A program made the translations under genes and the position numbers. Below, one piece after another: positions 19,678 through 28,848 of a DNA stretch of 34,421 nucleotides (position 1 is the first letter of the stretch; each line of letters opens with the position of its first letter). Under the pieces are notes generated by a model that had not been told where the DNA came from, searched no databases, and saw only the letters and a program-made list of their open reading frames with translations. Source of the DNA: a virus; IMG/VR virus record IMGVR_UViG_3300021141_000030, positions 1-34,421 of that record. One strand, given 5' to 3'.

Positions 19678-19865
19678 CATCATCCTCCTCATCCTCCCCC
19701 TCGTCTTCCAGCGGGTCTGCAAAGACTAGCACCTCGGTGTCGGAGTCTAGCAGTTCCGTCTACTCTTCTGGCGGATCAAGCTCTGCACCCCTGCCTAGCG
19801 GTTCAGGCGGCGGTGGCGAAGAAGGCGGTGGCGAAGAAGGCGGTGGCGAAGCAGTAGACCCATGA
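19674..19865 (+). CDS. Small mucin-like Ser/Gly-rich protein
   Basis: A 63-residue, low-complexity protein. About the first 45 residues are dominated by Ser with Thr, Pro and Gly (runs such as SSSSSSPSSSSGS), followed by Gly/Glu repeats encoded by a 15-base tandem repeat. It has no hydrophobic segment. Its start (ATGA) overlaps the tail-tip gene and its stop overlaps the GT25 gene, so it is locked in one translational chain with two glycan enzymes. The composition is what one would expect of an acceptor for O-linked glycans. That role is inference; a flexible linker is the alternative. Confidence 0.55.
   Translation: MTSSSSSSPSSSSGSAKTSTSVSESSSSVYSSGGSSSAPLPSGSGGGGEEGGGEEGGGEAVDP
19809..19850 (+). 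repeat. 15-bp tandem repeat, about 2.8 copies
   Basis: GGCGGTGGCGAAGAA occurs at 19809-19823 and 19824-19838 and partly at 19839-19850, encoding GGGEE units at the end of the Ser-rich protein. Confidence 0.9.
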
Positions 19866-20539
19866 AGACACTAACAGAGTTGTTCGACAGAGTCTATCTC
19901 ATCAATTGCGCTCATAGGCCGGACAGGCGAACACAGGTGCTAGAGCATCTCATGTCGTCCAGGATGGTGAAGGACTGGGATCGGTTTGAGGTAGTTAATG
20001 CAGTGATAGGCGACTGGACTTCACACCCTGCCTGCTGGCAGTCGGGCGCGGGCGCGTGGGGTTGCATGCGGTCACACCAAAGAATTGTAGAGGATGCCCT
20101 TCACATCAGAGACGAGCGGTATCAGCTAGCGCTAGGCAGCATCCTGGTGCTGGAAGACGACGTGTTCTTTCTGGACAATGCGCTAGAAGACCTCAACCGA
20201 TTCATGGACAACGTGCCTAACGACTGGGGGCAGATATACCTTGGCGGGCAGCACCGTCAGGACTTTGAAGAGACCGAGTCGCCGCACGTTATCGTAGGAA
20301 GGTCAGTCAACCGGACGCACGCCTATGCGCTTCATGCTAGGACTTTCCATCAATTCTACCGGCACATCTGCCACGCCCCTGACTACGCAGGCACTAACAA
20401 GCACGTCGATCACCAGCTAGAGCTAGCCCACCAACGGCGCGACTGGAAGGTCTACTGCCCTCGCCGCTGGATTTGCGGGCAGGAAGCAGGAAGCTCTAAC
20501 ATTAGCGGAAAAACCAACGACCGCCAGACTTGGATATGA
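19862..20539 (+). CDS. Glycosyltransferase family 25, second copy
   Basis: A 225-residue GT25-like protein. LFDRVYLINCAHRPDRRTQVLEHL is the family's N-terminal I-N-x-x-x-R-x-D-R block, GAGAWGCMRSHQRIVEDAL is the conserved G-C-x-x-S-H block, and ILVLEDDVFF has the acidic EDD (98-100). It keeps the G-C-x-x-S-H block better than the paralogue at 1187 and the two differ widely, so they are probably not a recent duplication. It sits between the Ser-rich protein and a GT9-FkbM fusion with ATGA overlaps on both sides, which suggests that the three products act on the same glycan. Confidence 0.85.
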   Translation: MKTLTELFDRVYLINCAHRPDRRTQVLEHLMSSRMVKDWDRFEVVNAVIGDWTSHPACWQSGAGAWGCMRSHQRIVEDALHIRDERYQLALGSILVLEDDVFFLDNALEDLNRFMDNVPNDWGQIYLGGQHRQDFEETESPHVIVGRSVNRTHAYALHARTFHQFYRHICHAPDYAGTNKHVDHQLELAHQRRDWKVYCPRRWICGQEAGSSNISGKTNDRQTWI

Positions 20540-21945
20540 AACGATACTACCCTGTAGGAACTCCGCCTGACTTTTCGCACTCAGGGGACTATGGCGACAC
20601 GATCTTTTCGCTAGCAACCGTCAAAGCAGTAGGCGGCGCGGATCGGTTCATTCTGTCGTGCGATCCTTACAGAACTGTCATGCCTATGACAGAGGCGCAC
20701 GCTTCGGTTATTGCTCCTCTGCTAGAGGCCCAGCCATACATCGGAGAAGTGCTATGGTCTCCGGCACCGTGTGGCTCCTCCTTAGACGGGTGGAGGGATC
20801 ACTTGCGGGATTACCCTAACCTTATATCCGCCCATGGGGGTACGCGAGGCATAGGCTGGGACGTTCGACTGCTAGAGCGTCCGTGGCTGATTGCTCCTTG
20901 CCCTGCGTCTGGTGTTGGGTATGTTTTTGTGAGGACTGCACGCGCACGCGGAGAAGATGCACACTGGCATAAGCTAGTAGAGCTTTACGGTCACGACGCT
21001 ATCTTCCTAGGGCTGCAAGAAGAGCATGAGGCTTTCACAGCCCAGTTCGGTCACATTCCTTGGGTGCCAACCGCTAACTTTCTTGAAGCTGCTAACATAA
21101 TTGCAGGCTGCAAAGCATTCTTCGGGAATCAGACGGCGCTCCACGCTATCGCCGTAGGGCTCGGAAAACCTATCGTCAGGGAAGCACCTAGAGAAGACCG
21201 CTTCGACACTAGCAGGTTCTTCAGGGAAAACGAGATCAGTGTCTATGAGGGCGAGTCGATCAGTCAGGCTGCGGTAGAGTGTTTGCGGGAGTCGCCCCTA
21301 ACTACCACCCTACAGCGGCGGGTAGTGCCTAGTGGATGGGTTGACACCTGCTGGATCGGAGATCACTACTGGCACAGGTACAACCTTAGAGACTTGCTAT
21401 CTTCTGACACCTACAGATTCCGCACTAAGCTCCTAGAGCTAGACTTGCGCCCTAGGAAGATAGTAGACATTGGGGGTTTCATAGGTCTTGCGTCGTGGGC
21501 GATGCACCGTATATGGCCGGATGCTACGCAAGTTATATACGAGCCTAACGTCGATGCGCAGCAGTTGTTATGGCTCAACAACCCTAGCGCTAAGATCGTT
21601 CCTGCGGCTGTACACCCTAGCGAGCGATGGCTTCCGTACTCCAAACCGCAGTCTGACCCTGGCTGCAATCACTGCCTAGGAACATCACGCCGGACTGTAC
21701 CTGCTGTGTGGCTAGACGAAAGTGACGGCCCTATCGACGTTATCAAAACTGACTGCGAAGGAGGGGAGTGGGAGGTGCTAGCTGCCTTGCACACGCTGGA
21801 GAATCTTCCAAAGCTGATCTTCGGGGAGTATCACGGGGCATGCGGAGTAGAGCGCCTAACGGATATGCTGGGCAAGGACTACACCTTGGATTTCCGAGAG
21901 GATAGCAGCGAAATCGGGCTATTCTGGGCGCTTCGTAAGGCGTAG
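20536..21945 (+). CDS. GT9-like glycosyltransferase fused to FkbM methyltransferase
   Basis: A 469-residue two-domain protein from ATG 20536 (ATGA overlap; in-frame TTG at 20530 is less likely). Residues 1 to about 260 resemble heptosyltransferase-like GT9 proteins: GDYGDTIFSLATVKAV near the N-terminus and a nucleotide-sugar site region ANIIAGCKAFFGNQTALHAIAVGLGKP. From about residue 300 an FkbM-type SAM-dependent methyltransferase begins, with VDIGGFIGLASWAM as the SAM-binding loop, IYEPN as the acidic strand end, and VIKTDCEGGEWEVL, the FkbM hallmark K-x-D-x-E-G-x-E. It probably adds and O-methylates a sugar. It ends in TAG. Confidence 0.75.
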   Translation: MKRYYPVGTPPDFSHSGDYGDTIFSLATVKAVGGADRFILSCDPYRTVMPMTEAHASVIAPLLEAQPYIGEVLWSPAPCGSSLDGWRDHLRDYPNLISAHGGTRGIGWDVRLLERPWLIAPCPASGVGYVFVRTARARGEDAHWHKLVELYGHDAIFLGLQEEHEAFTAQFGHIPWVPTANFLEAANIIAGCKAFFGNQTALHAIAVGLGKPIVREAPREDRFDTSRFFRENEISVYEGESISQAAVECLRESPLTTTLQRRVVPSGWVDTCWIGDHYWHRYNLRDLLSSDTYRFRTKLLELDLRPRKIVDIGGFIGLASWAMHRIWPDATQVIYEPNVDAQQLLWLNNPSAKIVPAAVHPSERWLPYSKPQSDPGCNHCLGTSRRTVPAVWLDESDGPIDVIKTDCEGGEWEVLAALHTLENLPKLIFGEYHGACGVERLTDMLGKDYTLDFREDSSEIGLFWALRKA

Positions 21946-21961
21946 AGGGTCGGTCTGAGAA

Positions 21962-21991
21962 ATGCACGGCTTGCAAATTTCCAGGCCGTAA
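21962..21991 (+). other. Micro-ORF MHGLQISRP, possible leader peptide
   Basis: ATG CAC GGC TTG CAA ATT TCC AGG CCG TAA, nine codons, 16 bases after the fusion gene stop and about 105 bases before the AAA+ gene. The same first seven residues occur in a second micro-ORF at 31683. No ribosome-binding site is evident. It might be a translated leader, or the match may reflect the TTGCAAAT DNA element. Confidence 0.3.
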
Positions 21992-22048
21992 CTTTGCAAA
22001 TCTTTGCAAATTGCAATCTCTGAAAATTCTTTGAGTCTCTGCTTGCAA
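21963..22048 (+). repeat. Cluster of TTGCAAAT elements
   Basis: TTGCAAAT occurs at 21971, 21995, 22004 and 22043 on the + strand within about 80 bases, in an AT-rich gap. The word recurs in other gaps of the replication region (24509, 28872, 31692, 31731). Such clustering suggests a regulator-binding or promoter element at the start of the presumed early genes. Confidence 0.45.
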
Positions 22049-22069
22049 ATCTTTTGCCGGGTGTAAAGT
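22043..22069 (+). promoter_or_regulatory. Possible promoter of the AAA+ cassette
   Basis: TTGCAA (22043-22048), 15-base spacer, TAAAGT (22064-22069). The -10 is fair and the spacing short. The similar pair with 16-base spacing at 24509 supports it. The leader contains CCAACCATACTAAC before ATG 22097. Confidence 0.35.
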
Positions 22070-22096
22070 AGACCCACACCCCAACCATACTAACAC

Positions 22097-23761
22097 ATGC
22101 AAGACGAACACAAATCCATTTCCGACTTCCTCGCCGCCTTTACACGCTACGACTCCTCCGCCGTAGGCGTTATGGTGATCCGGTCTCGCGAGCCTAACAG
22201 AGTCGAGCAGGCTCTGCACGAATACTGCGCTCGCTCCCCGCAAGGTGCCCGCCCTTTCCGGTGCTGGGACTTGGCTAGGAACTGGCGCATCGCAGACCAC
22301 GCCACGGGCAGTTTCAAGCGGGAGGAGGCGGGCGTAGTCAAGGCGCTGAAAGCAGTGCTAGACGTTAGCGCGGTTACGTCCCCAGCACCTATGGACCCTC
22401 GCACGGTGTGCATGTTCTCGGACCTGCACGCTTTTCTCGGAGCGCAGCCCAACCCGGAAATTGTTAGCCTGCTGCGGTACTATGCGTGGGAGCTTCCTGC
22501 TAGGTCCGGCCAGCGCATCATACTCTCGGTCCCCGAAACCTTTAACGTGCCCGAGGAACTGTCCCACGACATTCCAGTCATCGACATGGCACTCCCTGAC
22601 ACAGCAGAGCTTGAGACCCTTATCGCTAAGGTATTCGCAGACGACGCAGAGCAGCGGCGCGGAACGCCCCAGACCTACCCTGCGGACGAGATGCGCCAGC
22701 TGGCGGTGTCGGCGGGAGGGCTGACCTGCCTGGAAGCAGAGACGGCGGTATGTGCTACCTTGATCGACTTCCGCGACCAGATCCCTAACATACCATTTAC
22801 ATCCTTCAACCGCCGGGTGATGGCGGCGAAGGCGGACACGATCAAGGCGTCTGGCCTGCTGGAGATTATGCCAGAAGTGGCTCTGGAGAACGTCGGCGGG
22901 CTGGACCTGCTAAAGGAGTGGGCGCAGGCGCGGGCGGTTGACCGCACGCCGGAAGCGCTAGCGTTCGGGGTAAAGCGTCCGCGAGGCGTCACCCTTATCG
23001 GCCCTCCTGGTACAGGTAAAAGCCTGACAGCGTCTACCTTCGGCGCAATCTTCCGCATCCCTGCTATCAAAATCCACATCGGCGCTCTCTTCGGCGGTAT
23101 CGTAGGGCAGACCGAGGCTAACGTCCGCCGTCTGTGCAAGGACATCGAAGCGCTAGGTGAGTGCGTTGTGTTTGCCGACGAGATCGACCGGACCATGGGC
23201 ATGAACACGGTCGGCGGCGACGGCGGCATTACTCGGCGCATGATCGGAACGCTGCTGGACTTCATGCAGACTAACGAAACTGGCGCGTTCTTCTGCTTCG
23301 CTGCTAACCGCGCCGAGGGCATCGACTCTGCTCTCGTCCGCAAAGGCCGGATCGACGAAGTCTTCGGGGTCAACCCGCCTAACACAGTCGAGCGTCTGGA
23401 AATCCTCCGCATCCACCTGCGAAAAGCCAAGCAAGATCCTAGCAAGATCAAAGACCTGCAAGCCGCAGCAGCAGAGTCTTCTGGCTACGTCGGCGCGGAG
23501 CTTGAGAGCGCGGTTCAACGTGCGGTCAGCACCGCCTTCCGTAAAGGGGCACCTGTGAGCGGAGCGACAATTTTGCAAGAATTGCAAACTATCAAACCGC
23601 TCTCCCAGTCCTTCGCGGAAGACTTCGCTGCGATGGAAGCGTGGGCTAGCAAGAACGCGGTGCCCGCCTCTTCTCCCGACCCGTCCAAGCCTGCTCGCAA
23701 AGCGCCAGCCGCTACGCAAGCCGACGCCTCCGGCCCAGCCCGCCGCCGAAATATGAACTAA
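22097..23761 (+). CDS. Ycf46-like AAA+ ATPase
   Basis: A 554-residue AAA+ protein with the layout of cyanobacterial/plastid Ycf46. The N-terminal domain (about 1-200) has VMVIRSREPNRVEQAL, TVCMFSDLHAFL, LLRYYAW and IILSVPETFNVPEEL, matching the Ycf46 N-domain. The ATPase domain has Walker A GPPGTGKS (302-309), GALFGGIVGQTEANVRRL as the pore-loop/second-region-of-homology part, Walker B FADEID (D361, E362), sensor-1 FAANR and RKGRIDE with the likely arginine finger. The C-terminal tail (about 500-554) is Ala/Pro/Lys-rich and disordered. All catalytic residues are present. The substrate is unknown. DUF1257 and DUF2997 genes follow, as near ycf46-related genes in some bacteria. Confidence 0.85.
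   Translation: MQDEHKSISDFLAAFTRYDSSAVGVMVIRSREPNRVEQALHEYCARSPQGARPFRCWDLARNWRIADHATGSFKREEAGVVKALKAVLDVSAVTSPAPMDPRTVCMFSDLHAFLGAQPNPEIVSLLRYYAWELPARSGQRIILSVPETFNVPEELSHDIPVIDMALPDTAELETLIAKVFADDAEQRRGTPQTYPADEMRQLAVSAGGLTCLEAETAVCATLIDFRDQIPNIPFTSFNRRVMAAKADTIKASGLLEIMPEVALENVGGLDLLKEWAQARAVDRTPEALAFGVKRPRGVTLIGPPGTGKSLTASTFGAIFRIPAIKIHIGALFGGIVGQTEANVRRLCKDIEALGECVVFADEIDRTMGMNTVGGDGGITRRMIGTLLDFMQTNETGAFFCFAANRAEGIDSALVRKGRIDEVFGVNPPNTVERLEILRIHLRKAKQDPSKIKDLQAAAAESSGYVGAELESAVQRAVSTAFRKGAPVSGATILQELQTIKPLSQSFAEDFAAMEAWASKNAVPASSPDPSKPARKAPAATQADASGPARRRNMN
23574..23589 (+). repeat. 16-bp repeat, copy 1
   Basis: TGCAAGAATTGCAAAC here is identical to 26345-26360. Both copies are inside coding sequence, in frames giving LQELQT and MQELQT respectively. 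Confidence 0.8.
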
Positions 23762-23794
23762 CAGAACACGAACCAGACCCAACCACCTAACAAT

Positions 23795-24505
23795 ATGCCA
23801 ATAATCTCACTAGACGTAGGAAGCGTAAACCTGGCCCGGTCATCTGCGAGAGTGCTAGTATTCCACGCGCCCACAGACCCGTCTATGAAAGAGGTCAACA
23901 TCTACACCGCCTCGGGCGAGACTGCACGACACATCCAGCGCCGAGGCTACCAGGCGAAGCGCCCATCGGTCGCCAAGCGTATGCACGCAGGCGAGCAGCG
24001 TGTGCCGCAGGACATGACGGTCTACGGCTATATGCAGGCTAGCAGCTACACCGTCCCTAACGGAACGATTATCAAAGTTATGGGGCAGACGACTAGCAAC
24101 TGGTCTCCGAATGGATCTAGCGCAGGCATCTCTAAGATCACCGCCAACAGGTACTACCTTGTACGGGATGGCGCGGCACTGCTGGACGTTAAAGTCAGGA
24201 TGCTCCGTTCTGTCGATTGCGTGACAGACCACGCTAGTATCTCCGGGCCGCTGGAGCGGCTTACCGTAGAGCAGGCAGAGGCGCTAGGAGTTACGCCGCA
24301 GCGCGAAGAATACCGCAAGCTCTACCGCGACGACGTGTGCGACTACGTCTTCTCCGAGACGGTCCTAGCGCCTGCCTCTACCGAGGTAACGATAGCGCCT
24401 ACGGCCCAGCCTGCTGCACAGCCTGGAGTGCCTACGGTAGCCGGACCCGCTGCCGTTCTAGTGGCTCTGCCTACAAAGCGCCGCCGACAAATTGGGGTAA
24501 ACTAA
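23795..24505 (+). CDS. Uncharacterised protein of the AAA+ cassette
   Basis: A 236-residue protein between the Ycf46-like ATPase and the DUF1257 gene. It is beta-rich for the first 180 residues (VNIYTASGETARHIQRRGYQ; MTVYGYMQASSYTVPNGTIIKVMGQ) and ends in a Pro/Ala/Val-rich tail with a basic PTKRRRQ. No family recognised. It may be a client or partner of the ATPase. The leader has AGACCCAACCACCTAAC before the ATG, with no Shine-Dalgarno. Confidence 0.6.
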   Translation: MPIISLDVGSVNLARSSARVLVFHAPTDPSMKEVNIYTASGETARHIQRRGYQAKRPSVAKRMHAGEQRVPQDMTVYGYMQASSYTVPNGTIIKVMGQTTSNWSPNGSSAGISKITANRYYLVRDGAALLDVKVRMLRSVDCVTDHASISGPLERLTVEQAEALGVTPQREEYRKLYRDDVCDYVFSETVLAPASTEVTIAPTAQPAAQPGVPTVAGPAAVLVALPTKRRRQIGVN

Positions 24506-24508
24506 CAC

Positions 24509-24536
24509 TTGCAAATTCAATCCCTTGTATTAAAGT
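24509..24536 (+). promoter_or_regulatory. Possible promoter before the DUF1257 gene
   Basis: TTGCAA (24509-24514), 16-base spacer, TAAAGT (24531-24536). Predicted transcription begins about 12 bases before ATG 24555. It shares both boxes with the candidate at 22043. Confidence 0.4.
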
Positions 24537-24554
24537 AACTCGTACCAGAAATAT

Positions 24555-25016
24555 ATGTCACACACTAGCACAGTCAATCAAGTCCCTATCCGTTCTATCT
24601 CCGCCTTGCAGAGCGCACTGCGCAAGCTAGCCGAACAAGGCATCAAGGCTTCTCTCGAAGCTAACGCCGCGCCTCGTATGTACTACCCGGACCAGCTACG
24701 CCGCGAGGGGCGTCCTTCCGAAGTCTGCGACTACGTTGTCAGGCTTCCCGACTGCTACTTCGACATCGGGCTGGTCTCCGATAACAAAGGCGGATACCTA
24801 GCAAAGTACGACGCCCACCCCGGAGCTACGCCGTACCACGCAGGCGGCTCCACGCATCTCCGCAAGCTGCTAGGCAACCCGGAGTCGCCTATAGGCAAGC
24901 TCCTTGTTAGCTACAGCGCCGCCGCAGCAGTAGAGCTAGCCGAGTCGCAAGGCTTCATGATTAGCGACTACATCACCGAACCGGACGGCAGCATAACAAT
25001 TAAGGCAATGGTCTGA
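24555..25016 (+). CDS. DUF1257 (Ycf35-like) protein
   Basis: A 153-residue protein matching the DUF1257/Ycf35 pattern: an N-terminal MSHTSTVNQVPIRSISALQSAL, a CDYVVRLPDCYFDIGLV strand pair, a KGGYLAKYDAH segment, and a C-terminal LLVSYSAAAAVELAESQGFMIS followed by DGSITIKAMV, the family's closing 'Q-G-F-x-I ... D-G-S-I-x-I'. The family is of unknown function and is found in cyanobacteria and plastids, where it co-occurs with Ycf46 and DUF2997 proteins. Finding the group together in a phage suggests they act jointly. The next gene starts after a run of three 11-base repeats. Confidence 0.75.
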   Translation: MSHTSTVNQVPIRSISALQSALRKLAEQGIKASLEANAAPRMYYPDQLRREGRPSEVCDYVVRLPDCYFDIGLVSDNKGGYLAKYDAHPGATPYHAGGSTHLRKLLGNPESPIGKLLVSYSAAAAVELAESQGFMISDYITEPDGSITIKAMV

Positions 25017-25047
25017 ACTACTAACGAACTACTAACGAACTACTAGA
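25015..25047 (+). repeat. Three 11-bp tandem repeats before DUF2997
   Basis: GAACTACTAAC at 25015-25025 and 25026-25036, then GAACTACTAGA at 25037-25047, ending just before ATG 25048. The period is one helical turn of DNA. The first copy overlaps the upstream stop codon. Confidence 0.9.
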
Positions 25048-25242
25048 ATGAAGTCGATTACAATTAAGATTCGCCCTGACGGGGCGGTAAAGATCGAAGC
25101 CGAAGGCTTCACCGACGCCTCCTGCAAAGACGCCACCCGTGCTATCGAAGAGGGTCTCAGCGGCGGAACCACAGTAGGCTACGAGGACAAGCCCGAGGCT
25201 TGCATCCCGGCGACAGGCGGCGCAACCACTACCGGATACTAA
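25048..25242 (+). CDS. DUF2997 protein
   Basis: A 64-residue protein with the DUF2997 pattern: MKSITIKIRPDGAVKIEAEGFTDASC, then KDATRAIEEGL, then YEDKPEA. The family pairs a short beta hairpin with a conserved G-F-x-x-x-x-C and a K-P-E motif. It is usually encoded beside DUF1257, as here. Function is unknown. The C-terminal tail is Gly/Thr-rich. Its only leader is the tandem repeats, with no Shine-Dalgarno; TAA is one base before the next ATG. Confidence 0.75.
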   Translation: MKSITIKIRPDGAVKIEAEGFTDASCKDATRAIEEGLSGGTTVGYEDKPEACIPATGGATTTGY

Positions 25243-25243
25243 C

Positions 25244-25678
25244 ATGAACTCTCCTACCCTCCCAACTCAGACGCCTAACAGGCTGCAAGTCCTTCGCATA
25301 TCTCCAGATGGTGGATTGCACGGCTTGCAAATCTCCGGCGGTATCGACTTCAAGCAGCTAGGCGATACGCAGACTGATCGTGTTAGCGAAATCAAATGGG
25401 ACTACCGGGAGCAGCGGTGGTTCATCCAGTTCCGGCGTGGGCCGCTAGCTCGCCGCAAGCTCCGCAAGGCGCACCTTAAAGCCTACGGCGTAGTGTCTGC
25501 CAGGGCCGAGCAGGACTCGTCGCCTGTGGCATACTACCGGGAATATCAGGAGGCGGTAGCGGACGAGGTAGACGTAGTAAACGCCGCAGCAGCGCGAGGC
25601 GAGCGGTGGATTGAGTGCCCTAAGCCTAGCCCGATCCGGCGGCTCGTAGACGCACTGGCTAGGAGGTGGAGGCGCTAG
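25244..25678 (+). CDS. Uncharacterised protein of the AAA+ cassette
   Basis: A 144-residue protein starting one base after the DUF2997 stop (CTAACATG). VSEIKWDYREQRWFIQFRRG resembles short domains found in other phage proteins, but no named family was recognised. Near residues 24-32 it contains GLHGLQISGG, whose HGLQIS is the same as in the two micro-ORFs, encoded by nearly the same DNA (25317-25335). The C-terminus is basic (RRLVDALARRWRR). It ends in TAG. Coupling to the cassette suggests a shared function. Confidence 0.55.
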   Translation: MNSPTLPTQTPNRLQVLRISPDGGLHGLQISGGIDFKQLGDTQTDRVSEIKWDYREQRWFIQFRRGPLARRKLRKAHLKAYGVVSARAEQDSSPVAYYREYQEAVADEVDVVNAAAARGERWIECPKPSPIRRLVDALARRWRR

Positions 25679-25761: not shown

Positions 25762-27027
25762 ATGCCGAAGTCTATCATACCACGCCAGCGTGTCAACAAA
25801 AACCTGTCGGAAGATTGGGGAGACGGTGCGCTGAAAAACCCGCTAGAATTCCGCGAGTGGTGGAAGGTTCTTATGCGCGTGTGGCGTCCTGCCCTAACAG
25901 TATCCCAGTTCATGGTCGCGGCTTTCATCTTCGACCGGACGGCAGCGTGGGGTAAGGAGTGGGAGGTGATAACACTTCGACACTTCATCGACGGGGTGTC
26001 CGGTAAGGACGGCGCTTGCTATGCTCCAGGTCTAGGACTCAGCCAGCCTACGGTCTCAGCAGCCCTAGCTAGCCTCTGCGAGCAGGGTCTAGTACGGAAG
26101 CGGGCCGTAAGGAACCGCTACGCATACGCACTCAACTACGAATACAACCCGGAGAATCCGATGAAACTGCCAGTTCCAAAACGTGTTAGTAACCCTCAAG
26201 GGGTAAAAGAATCTTATACCCAAGTGCCCAAAAAGGTAAAAAATACTTTTACCCTTAACTGTACCAAAAGCATTAAGAGAAATGTACCAAAAACACCCTG
26301 CCCGTCTTCGACGGACAAGGATGAGTTTGATATGGAAGCGAGAATGCAAGAATTGCAAACCCTAGCAAACGCAACCATGGCGCACACCTCCTCCCGCCGG
26401 AAGGTGAAGCAGGACGCCTTAACACCGCAAGGCTGCTGCACGCTATGGATGGACGCCTGTGTCGAGTTCCACCCGGACTCTACCCAGCTATCGCTTACAC
26501 AGTCCGACTCTGCTATCCTCCGCCGCTTCCTAGTCCGCGCCTTCGGCAGGGACGCAGCAAAGGCTCGCACGTTTGTCCGCTGGCTCTCCGAACACTGGCT
26601 AATCCTGCGGGCAGAGCTTTTCCACTGGATGCAGAACACTCCGCCATCTGTGCCTTCTGTTAGGTTCACAGTCAAGTTCTCTGACAAGTTTGAAGCAGCC
26701 TTCGCAGCCCGCGATGAGTACGAGCGGCTAGCGGCGCTACCTCTCAGGGACCGTGAGGTTAGGACGCTCATGCTGCGGAAGGGCATGACGAAGGCGGCAG
26801 CAGAGGCGCACGTTGACGCGCAGCACGCCCAGACGGTACAGGCGAAGGAGACCCGCAAGGCAGCGCGGGAGGCGGTACAGGCAGCGAATACGCTAACCAC
26901 CGCACAGCAGCGGCAGCGCGATGCGGATGCCGCGAAACGCCGATGGTCCCGCTTGTCGTCCGCGAAGCATAGTGCTACGCAGACCGCCCCGGACAGCTTG
27001 CCAGATTTTGACTCACTCCCAGACTAA
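25762..27027 (+). CDS. Replication initiator, lambda O-like winged-helix protein
   Basis: A 421-residue protein. Residues about 30-130 form a winged-helix DNA-binding domain like phage replication protein O (VLMRVWRPALTVSQFMVAAFIFDRTAAWGKEW; then GLSQPTVSAALASLCEQGLVRKRAVRN as the recognition helix/wing). A low-complexity Lys/Asn/Thr linker (about 130-190) follows, encoded by AT-rich DNA full of repeats that resembles an origin. The C-terminal half is helical and basic with a repetitive Ala/Lys/Arg/Gln stretch, probably for helicase contact. The neighbouring genes for a loader-like protein, helicase, polymerase and primase support the role. The leader has AGACCCAACCA before the ATG. Confidence 0.7.
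   Translation: MPKSIIPRQRVNKNLSEDWGDGALKNPLEFREWWKVLMRVWRPALTVSQFMVAAFIFDRTAAWGKEWEVITLRHFIDGVSGKDGACYAPGLGLSQPTVSAALASLCEQGLVRKRAVRNRYAYALNYEYNPENPMKLPVPKRVSNPQGVKESYTQVPKKVKNTFTLNCTKSIKRNVPKTPCPSSTDKDEFDMEARMQELQTLANATMAHTSSRRKVKQDALTPQGCCTLWMDACVEFHPDSTQLSLTQSDSAILRRFLVRAFGRDAAKARTFVRWLSEHWLILRAELFHWMQNTPPSVPSVRFTVKFSDKFEAAFAARDEYERLAALPLRDREVRTLMLRKGMTKAAAEAHVDAQHAQTVQAKETRKAAREAVQAANTLTTAQQRQRDADAAKRRWSRLSSAKHSATQTAPDSLPDFDSLPD
26192..26292. other. Putative replication origin inside the initiator gene
   Basis: An AT-rich stretch within a GC-rich gene. It contains a near-palindrome at 26201-26221 (arms GGGTAAAAGA and TCTTATACCC, 9 of 10 matching), a perfect palindrome at 26235-26253 (GGTAAAA, AATAC, TTTTACC), both using a GGGTAAAA half-site, and TGTACCAAAA twice (26260-26269, 26283-26292). 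The layout matches lambda, where initiator binding sites lie within the O gene. Confidence 0.55.
26345..26360 (+). repeat. 16-bp repeat, copy 2
   Basis: Identical to 23574-23589; it lies about 50 bases downstream of the origin-like repeats within the initiator gene. Confidence 0.8.
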
Positions 27028-27049
27028 CATATAACCCGACACACACACC

Positions 27050-27601
27050 GTGAACGAAAAAGACCCAACCGAAAACAAGCAGATGAGCGATGCTTTCCTA
27101 GCGTCGTACATCCCTAGCAGATACCACAATATGAAGCTGACAATGTCGAACTGCGGATGCGCTGATGCCGAGCGCTGGTCGCAGTGGCTACCGGATGCGG
27201 CGTCGCAGTTCAAGAAAGGCGGATTCCTCCACATGGCAGGAGACGGAGTCCCTAACATCGACAAAGTGTTCATCGCTGCGAGAGCGCTAGTCTCGAAAGG
27301 CATAGCTACAGCCGTCATCCCACTCCCTAGCGCTTGCCGCATGATTGCTGGAGCGGGCGTCGAATGGTCGGACGCCGTTAGAGACAGACATGCGCTAGTG
27401 ATTCCAGGATTTACCGGACAGCAGGCGCGTCTACCAGTAGACGAGAAAGCAGCCTATTCGCTAGAATGGTTCCTTCGCCGCTGGCTCCTAAGCGGGAAGG
27501 CTCTGCTGACTCAGGGCGCGACTCCGCTAGCAGGATCAAGCTGGTGGCCAGCCTCATTCCTCACAACGCTCTCAGGGTTCACTATCCAAGCACCACAATG
27601 A
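27050..27601 (+). CDS. DnaC/DnaI-like helicase loader lacking Walker motifs
   Basis: A 183-residue protein encoded immediately upstream of the DnaB-like helicase with an ATGA overlap. The order matches helicase loaders: FLASYIPSRYHNMKL (the I-P-x-R-Y entry), a domain beginning GGFLHMAGDGVPNIDKVFIAARALV where loaders carry the G-x-G-K-T loop, RHALVIPGF where they carry L-V-I-D-D, and SLEWFLRRWLLSGKALLTQGATPL as their R-x-x-x-x-x-T-S-N sensor region. The P-loop Lys-Thr and the Walker B acids are missing, so ATP use is unlikely. GTG 27050 is used; ATG 27083 (after AGACCCAACCG) is an equally good start. The homology is by pattern and needs profile checking. Confidence 0.5.
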   Translation: MNEKDPTENKQMSDAFLASYIPSRYHNMKLTMSNCGCADAERWSQWLPDAASQFKKGGFLHMAGDGVPNIDKVFIAARALVSKGIATAVIPLPSACRMIAGAGVEWSDAVRDRHALVIPGFTGQQARLPVDEKAAYSLEWFLRRWLLSGKALLTQGATPLAGSSWWPASFLTTLSGFTIQAPQ

Positions 27602-28848
27602 GCGCCGGACTACTATTCCTTTACGCCTGCGCACAGCGGCAGTCCGCCGCCGTCTTCCGTCGCGCACCTCGGACGCACTTTACTGAACAGGAGCTTCCGT
27701 TCGCAGACTTTGCTAGGGCCTACCTTACGTCCTACACGGTATTTCCTAACCTTGAAGCGTTCGCGCAGAACCGTAAAAGCCTGGACGAGTTTCCTAGCGA
27801 GCAGCCGCCCGAGGCTCTGCTAGGGCGCATCGCGCAGCGAGCGGCGTACAATTCTGTCAGGGACCGCATGAGCGCTCTAACAATGTCGATGCAGTCGCGC
27901 GACATCGACAGCATCCAGGCGCTCCTCCGCGAGATGCTGGCTGGAGTAAACCATGCGCAGAACGCTAACGCATCAGTCACAATGGAGCAGCACGCGCAGA
28001 CCGTCCTGGCTAACATCGAGGCTGCACGCACTCACGTCGGGCTTTTCGGAGCATCCTTGTGCTGGCCTACGTTTGACGCAGCCACGCACGGACTAGGCGG
28101 AGGAGAGCTAGGATTCATCGTAGGTAGACCGGGCACGGGTAAGTCCTGGACGCTCCTGAGTGTAGCCCACGCCAATCACTTGCTAGGCAAATCAGTACTG
28201 TTCGTTTCGATGGAGATGGGGCTGGATCAGATTGTACGCAGATGGCTAGGGCTTATGACCGGAGTAAACCCCAACGATATGCGGACAGGGACAACGGACT
28301 GGCATGAGACCGAACGCCTGCGGGCAGCAGCAGCAGACCTCGGAAACCACGCACCGATCCATCTTGTTAGCGGTGACTTCAGCAAGGATACGGACGGCAT
28401 CATTTCCATCATCGACGACGTAGGCCCGGAAGTAGTCTGCATTGACGCGCTCTACCTGCTCCGCAGCAATGGCGCAGAACACGTTAAGAAGTGGGAGGCG
28501 CTATCCGATGTCGTTAGGGACATAAAGCGCATGGCACTCTCTCGAAATATCCCAGTGATCTCTACAGTACAGTTTAACCGGAACCAGTCCGGCGCGTCGA
28601 GCAAGGCTATGTCGCTAGACAATATCGGCGGCACCGACTCTATCCCGCAAGATGCTAGCGTAGTGGTCGGCCTGCGCCCGGCACCGCCGCCCCACTCACA
28701 TTCCAAGATCATCGCAGAGATGCTGAAGAACCGGGAAGGCGATCAACCTGTTATCGGCATAGGCCGATCCTTCACGCCTATCAGATTCGATGAACTCCCG
28801 GCGGAAGAGGAAGAGGAAGACAACAACAGCAACGAGTGGATGGTATAA
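27598..28848 (+). CDS. DnaB-like replicative helicase
   Basis: A 416-residue protein from ATG 27598 (ATGA overlap). The N-terminal 150 residues are a helical, DnaB N-domain-like part (LPFADFARAYLTSY; RIAQRAAYNSVRDRM). The RecA-type ATPase has Walker A GRPGTGKS (176-183), VLFVSMEMGLDQIVRRWLGLMTG (the DnaB H1a/H2 region), Walker B VVCIDALYLL (D283), then IPVISTVQFNRNQSG (H3), and DASVVVGLRP near the end. It unwinds DNA at the fork and would work with the primase at 32362. An acidic tail (EEEEEDNNSNEW) closes it. Length is close to the lower end of the DnaB family. Confidence 0.8.
   Translation: MSAGLLFLYACAQRQSAAVFRRAPRTHFTEQELPFADFARAYLTSYTVFPNLEAFAQNRKSLDEFPSEQPPEALLGRIAQRAAYNSVRDRMSALTMSMQSRDIDSIQALLREMLAGVNHAQNANASVTMEQHAQTVLANIEAARTHVGLFGASLCWPTFDAATHGLGGGELGFIVGRPGTGKSWTLLSVAHANHLLGKSVLFVSMEMGLDQIVRRWLGLMTGVNPNDMRTGTTDWHETERLRAAAADLGNHAPIHLVSGDFSKDTDGIISIIDDVGPEVVCIDALYLLRSNGAEHVKKWEALSDVVRDIKRMALSRNIPVISTVQFNRNQSGASSKAMSLDNIGGTDSIPQDASVVVGLRPAPPPHSHSKIIAEMLKNREGDQPVIGIGRSFTPIRFDELPAEEEEEDNNSNEWMV

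Follow-up and report, generated by a model that had tools for sequence, protein, structure and literature searches.

A Ycf46-Type AAA+ ATPase Cassette With DUF1257 and DUF2997 Proteins Precedes the Replication Genes in One Clade of Phages

Introduction

The virus record IMGVR_UViG_3300021141_000030, analyzed here over its whole length of 34,421 nt (positions 1–34,421; hereafter the window), carries at 22097–25678 five intact open reading frames (ORFs), all on the + strand and nearly abutting. Their products are, in order, a Ycf46-type AAA+ ATPase, a protein here called U2, a divergent DUF1257 homolog of the Ycf35 type, a small DUF2997 protein, and a further protein called U5. In this cassette phages conserve their own version of a known, uncharacterized bacterial and plastid module. 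Its order, AAA, U2, DUF1257, DUF2997, U5, is repeated in 27 loci, 22 of them distinct, and in 25 loci it continues into genes for an O-like replication initiator, a DnaC-like helicase loader and the helicase DnaB. Our preferred reading, held tentatively and with a probability of roughly 0.45, is that the cassette encodes a Ycf46-type protein-remodeling AAA+ motor with small adaptors, expressed early together with replication.

To our knowledge, no biochemical role has been defined for Ycf46 or Ycf35, which are proteins of plastids and cyanobacteria. GenBank entries of the phages concerned name single genes as DUF1257 or DUF2997, and these families were already known. In the open literature we found no treatment of a phage copy of ycf46 or ycf35 and no description of the cassette, which does not prove that none exists elsewhere.

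Recurrence and Ancestry of the Cassette in Phages

By tblastn, relatives of the DUF1257 protein were found in 11 phage records, from Rhizobium, Aeromonas and Pseudomonas phages. A scan of viral contigs with a single protein query returned no relatives, and alignment queries were needed for that search. Outside annotated records, genes were called from ORFs, and several loci nearly duplicate one another. Carriers of the five-gene order include Rhizobium phages L338C and RHph_I4, Aeromonas phage HJ05, Pseudomonas phage SM1, Rhodobacter phage RcDurkin, Agrobacterium phage JP1 and metagenomic viruses; Rhizobium, Agrobacterium, Rhodobacter, Aeromonas and Pseudomonas are thus among the hosts. The same order is present, together with tail genes and DnaB, on plasmid p7 of Rhizobium bangladeshense (locus L086, a 109-kb record), which is probably a phage-plasmid. 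DUF2997 was detected in all 17 related phage records, compared with 6 of 299 sampled Bacillota genomes, 9 of 195 sampled Verrucomicrobiota genomes and 1 of 14 control genomes, and the recurrence of the cassette is far above chance.

In a maximum-likelihood tree of 77 AAA proteins, all 21 proteins from five-gene phage loci fall into one clade (support 98/85; 95% of bootstrap trees), inside which the AAA protein of the window sits on a long branch. A single phage clade is most simply explained by one gain of the cassette, which was then retained and passed on together with the replication block. The initial annotation of the window had described five genes locked in one block, which opens the presumed early region and is kept by the phage as a whole set. 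The locked block, its constancy in the phages and its place where the replication region begins are borne out by the shared order, its continuation into replication genes and the fixed place of the set in one clade: the genes do co-occur repeatedly in other phages and, as detailed below, the placements in DUF1257 and DUF2997 both hold.

The presence of an AAA gene of this kind does not by itself predict the two DUFs, since in the set derived from the P-loop DUF1257 accompanied 21 of 42 close AAA proteins and 5 of 27 distant ones (Fisher p = 0.011). A second set of phage AAA proteins, from 20 viral loci (including L004, L013, L016, L022, L028 and L030), has neither DUF1257 nor DUF2997, and Corndog-type mycobacteriophage Catdawg belongs to this clade. 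Here a different partner of ~280 aa is kept in 19 of the 20 loci and one of ~116 aa in nine, which fits a motor with exchangeable partners: the motor is the constant part, and its partners are what changes. The ~280-aa partner looked like DUF3150 but had no Pfam match, and that identity was dropped.

Proteins of the Cassette

The first gene (22097–23761, + strand) encodes a protein of 554 aa with an N-terminal domain of ~240 aa. It matches PF00004 (2.5e-22, 80.2 bits; cut-off 21.2) and, over its full length, phrog_8638 (3.8e-112), to which PHROGs assigns the function "unknown." In an alignment of nine homologs the Walker A motif GPPGTGKS, the Walker B residues DE (361–362), sensor-1 Asn404 and the arginines R415 and R418 are kept, with G302, G305, G307, K308, D361, E362, N404, R415 and R418 invariant. 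The protein therefore has all four hallmarks of a classical AAA domain (Walker A, Walker B, sensor 1 and Arg finger), and the intact Walker motifs and likely Arg finger that had been read from the sequence are real features of the family. Classical AAA proteins form rings that pull apart or remodel other proteins at the expense of ATP, as is established for CDC48/p97. The closest solved structures to the AAA core are CDC48/p97-type remodeling ATPases (E ~1e-55), and an [I/L/W]VG motif resembling a pore loop is present in the alignment. The AAA protein of a Pseudanabaena plasmid is 30% identical to that of the window at 98% coverage. A C-terminal PLS...WA..A.PAS region aligns with the AAA neighbors of cyanobacterial DUF1257 and DUF2997 genes, and the full-length two-part architecture is common to these proteins as well. 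We take the protein to be Ycf46-type from its family context.

The third ORF (24555–25016, + strand; 153 aa) scores below the gathering cut-off of PF06868 (12.0 bits, E 0.25, vs. 22.2). Profile–profile comparison with hhalign nevertheless matched the phage family to bacterial DUF1257 proteins at 99.5% (E 3e-23) over 126 columns, that is, over the whole domain; one of the bacterial proteins compared reaches 28.3 bits with PF06868 and thus clears its cut-off, and the homolog in Rhizobium phage RHph_I4 carries a DUF1257 annotation. On the strength of the sub-cut-off Pfam score and the profile match taken together, we regard the protein as a divergent DUF1257 homolog and not as a Pfam member, and the original assignment is retained in that form. 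The AF2 model of the protein has a pLDDT of 86.1. It had no Foldseek match to solved structures at E ≤ 0.001, which is no proof of a new fold; among solved KA1, TBP and helix-grip folds the best VIA Z was 4.2 (3.7 Å, 82 residues).

The fourth gene (25048–25242, + strand) encodes a 64-aa protein that passes PF11211 (2.4e-10, 40.6 bits; gathering cut-off 24.1), in agreement with its first description as DUF2997. The phage and bacterial DUF2997 profiles match at 99.1% (5e-19), and Cys26 is invariant in the alignment. Two Bacillota genomes carry natural DUF1257-DUF2997 fusions (L194, 1153–1683, and L196, 1003–1668); therefore, the two proteins probably bind each other.

The remaining two genes had been introduced as unknown partners; of the two, only the first is special to this phage clade. 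U2 (23795–24505, + strand; 236 aa) has no Pfam, PHROG or NCBIfam match, and its homologs are restricted to this phage clade. Its AF2 model (pLDDT 75.9) predicts a beta-sandwich and a disordered C-terminal tail that terminates in a conserved basic (Arg) motif. The only significant fold matches were the homologs of Pseudomonas phage SM1 and of one uncultured phage; against solved structures the model had no Foldseek match at E ≤ 0.001 and a VIA Z of at most 3.3, which again is no proof of a new fold. Kinship of U2 with DUF1257 was rejected on profile comparison (0.1%).

U5 (25244–25678, + strand; 144 aa) is neither phage-specific nor an orphan, because bacterial genomes also carry it behind DUF2997: it holds this phage-like position in 8 of 17 bacterial loci drawn by DUF2997 alone. 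Its N-terminal domain of ~80 aa recurs immediately behind DUF2997 in bacteria and in other phages, and the iterated profile gathered 36 matches. Descent of U5 from a duplicated DUF2997 was rejected (profile comparison 12%), and the only matches of its profile to solved structures, short ones to designed repeat proteins, were discarded as low-complexity noise. Overall, the initial interpretation is supported in part, for the family assignments and the locked block, and the standing of U5 is corrected.

The Module in Bacteria, Cyanobacteria and Plastids

In the window, AAA, DUF1257 and DUF2997 lie together in one operon-like run (22097–25242). In bacteria both DUFs lie near an AAA gene in 44 of 80 loci, and neither U2 nor U5 was found in these 80 genome-contig loci. 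Among the 17 loci drawn by DUF2997 alone, DUF1257 is adjacent in 14, and for nine of them an AAA gene falls inside the 3.1-kb stretch that was read, with two more in longer stretches.

The phage set resembles the Ycf46-Ycf35-DUF2997 set of cyanobacteria and plastids in its protein families, and on cyanobacterial plasmids, as in the phages, AAA, DUF2997 and DUF1257 occur together. Unlike the cyanobacterial set, it includes U2 and U5, has no ferredoxin and runs into replication genes, and its AAA protein is only ~28–32% identical to the cyanobacterial plasmid copies. The usual operon of Bacillota and Actinomycetota consists of AAA, DUF1257, DUF2997, a membrane helix-hairpin-helix (HHH) protein and an NrdG-type Fer4_12 radical-SAM protein. 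Its first three genes keep the order seen in the phages, which lack the HHH and radical-SAM genes and have U2 and U5 instead. Operons from the Verrucomicrobiota side share the DUF1257-DUF2997-U5 order with the phages; however, they have no U2 and no nearby replication genes, and their AAA gene is downstream and further away, or did not turn up in the 16 kb that were read.

Two plasmids show other settings of related genes. On a Pseudanabaena plasmid (L079, 1613–9770), genes for GrpE, Hsp70, DUF1257, a HEC-02-like ATPase, DUF2997, AAA and a WD40 protein stand in a single run that may constitute a chaperone or conflict system. On a Treponema plasmid (L085, 5315–9539), the gene of a related AAA protein stands between those of a 4Fe-4S protein and a baseplate-V-like protein, which suggests use of this AAA in a contractile injection system.

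Possible Functions of the Phage Cassette

The cassette is preceded by the longest intergenic gap of the window (21946–22096, + strand; 151 bp), which holds four copies of the repeat TTGCAAAT, and is followed by replication genes; in our reading it is expressed early and helps DNA synthesis to begin. By analogy with CDC48/p97, the AAA+ protein would form a ring and remodel other proteins with ATP. The DUF1257-DUF2997 pair, probably bound to each other and accompanied by U5, could act as adaptor or substrate-presenting subunits, with U2 supplying a phage-specific contact. As one of the first products of the early region and a part of the replication program, such a machine would spend ATP on dissociating or refolding protein complexes, of the host or of the phage, so that phage DNA synthesis could proceed.

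Several points weigh against a remodeling motor in the service of replication. We know of no ATPase activity, complex or phenotype for any member of the module. In the window AAA+ protein, Ile occupies the place where threading pore loops usually carry an aromatic residue. The synteny with replication genes may come from shared early transcription rather than from shared function. Moreover, bacterial copies adjoin radical-SAM, HHH-membrane, ferredoxin or chaperone genes and not replication genes, so the module may originally have served something other than replication. One can imagine, with greater reserve, that AAA, DUF1257, DUF2997 and U5 make up an undescribed general remodeling machine with exchangeable clients: an NrdG-like radical-SAM protein or a ferredoxin in bacteria and cyanobacteria, and a target at the start of replication or in the host in the siphophage clade.

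The phages offer a way into these questions, as the clade includes cultured, easily manipulated members in which the module is a core element of single origin, fixed before the replication genes. A deletion in such a phage that clearly altered plaques would open the function of the module to testing. The search is narrowed further by two leads, the fused DUF1257-DUF2997 proteins and the NrdG-like radical-SAM neighbor that recurs in bacteria.

The cassette stands ahead of initiator, loader, helicase and polymerase genes. In the window, the winged-helix O-like initiator (25762–27027, + strand; syntenic in the 25 loci) has weak matches to MarR_2/Phage_rep_O and matches phrog_678, replication initiation O-like, at 0.0014. 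The DnaC-like loader (27050–27601, + strand; 183 aa) has an eroded P-loop and a profile match to Escherichia coli DnaC (6qel, 1e-4), and the DnaB-type replicative helicase (27466–28848, + strand) matches PF03796 (1.8e-25) and phrog_19 (5.6e-54). The fixed place directly upstream of these genes raises the question of whether the motor is a replication-specific remodeler that acts on the phage replisome, for example by freeing the initiator or loader from the helicase. The loader family has no P-loop (GxxGxGK) in any of the aligned phages, so an external ATPase could provide the energy, and in Stenotrophomonas phage DLP_5 a divergent AAA gene precedes the same O-like, loader and DnaB genes without the DUFs. 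Such specialization is nonetheless unlikely in our view, given that a DnaC-like loader is already present and that bacterial relatives show no linkage to replication genes. The narrower proposal that the AAA protein is itself the phage helicase loader was rejected, because the 183-aa gene before DnaB, at 27050, is already DnaC-like; the motor need not itself load the helicase, but it might power the loader.

Association with an Fe-S or radical enzyme, strong in bacteria, is not supported in phages. According to this explanation the module keeps or activates such an enzyme, and the phage provides the module for a host enzyme, for instance ribonucleotide reductase or another radical enzyme. Of 88 loci from bacteria and plasmids, 30 have the Fer4_12 radical-SAM gene and likewise 30 the membrane HHH protein; the NrdG-like protein scores 116.4 bits against TIGR02491, below the cut-off of 126.1. 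Another radical-SAM protein, PflA-like, occurs in seven loci of Planctomycetota, Verrucomicrobiota and related bacteria. In Synechocystis, DUF2997, ycf35 (DUF1257) and the ferredoxin gene fed7 form an operon (PMC4284462), and the invariant Cys of DUF2997 points in the same direction. However, the window and all seven named relatives (79–110 kb) lack a radical-SAM gene, and only 2 of the 17 related phage records have one, far from the cassette (15 are without). The associated Fe-S protein, which is accessory and not strictly defining, is absent from the window and missing from many bacterial copies too. For the phage cassette we therefore find an Fe-S or radical function rather improbable.

Doubtful to a similar degree is a role in host takeover or counter-defense, in which the motor would disarm a host protein assembly early in infection. 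The cassette does lead the presumed early region, behind the repeat-bearing gap, and the clade-specific U2 could face the host. Yet genes for counter-defense tend to be accessory and variable, while the cassette is invariant from Rhizobium to Pseudomonas and belongs to one clade. The initial annotation had also raised a defense-related role; this role, like any other typical of accessory islands, sits badly with a single, vertically inherited core cassette in a fixed position. A phage-carried anti-phage or superinfection-exclusion system of the IetAS kind, in particular, is very improbable and was rejected: the phage protein shares the classical AAA core with the ATPase IetA (70.5 bits with IetA profiles), but the match is confined to that core, with none in the N-terminal part or to a partner, scores 60.2 bits with NCBIfam IteA against a cut-off of 510, and comes from a cassette of fixed core location that has no IetS-like protease and no other PADLOC match.

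Leader Repeats and Other Features of the Window

The repeat TTGCAAAT occurs 11 times in the window, where 0.4 copies are expected, a number reached in 0 of 100 shuffles. Nine copies are on the + strand (21971, 21994, 22004, 22043, 24509, 25325, 28870, 31692 and 31731) and two on the − strand (2092 and 10665), and most lie within gaps that precede early genes. They look like operator- or stoperator-like sites, or like a piece of an early promoter. The leader at 21946–22096 is accordingly promoter/operator-like in appearance and may act as a promoter; a sigma-70 scan of it found sites no more numerous than in shuffled sequence. Because related records searched whole measure 77–110 kb, we regard the window as a fragment of a phage of that size.

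Gene starts in the window, among them those with leaders at 22074–22096 and 25025–25047, have a Shine-Dalgarno sequence in 3 of 35 cases (background 21%), and CTAAC/TAAC-type leaders in 16 of 35 (background 14%). Related phages do use Shine-Dalgarno sequences (L001, 13/18; L002, 20/21; L003, 16/20; L010, 5/6). Judging from these start regions, translation initiation in the host of the window may be unusual. Between the tail-side genes and the cassette lies a pair of genes (19862–21945), the first encoding a glycosyltransferase of family 25 (19862–20539) and the second a protein with a borderline FkbM methyltransferase domain (20530–21945).

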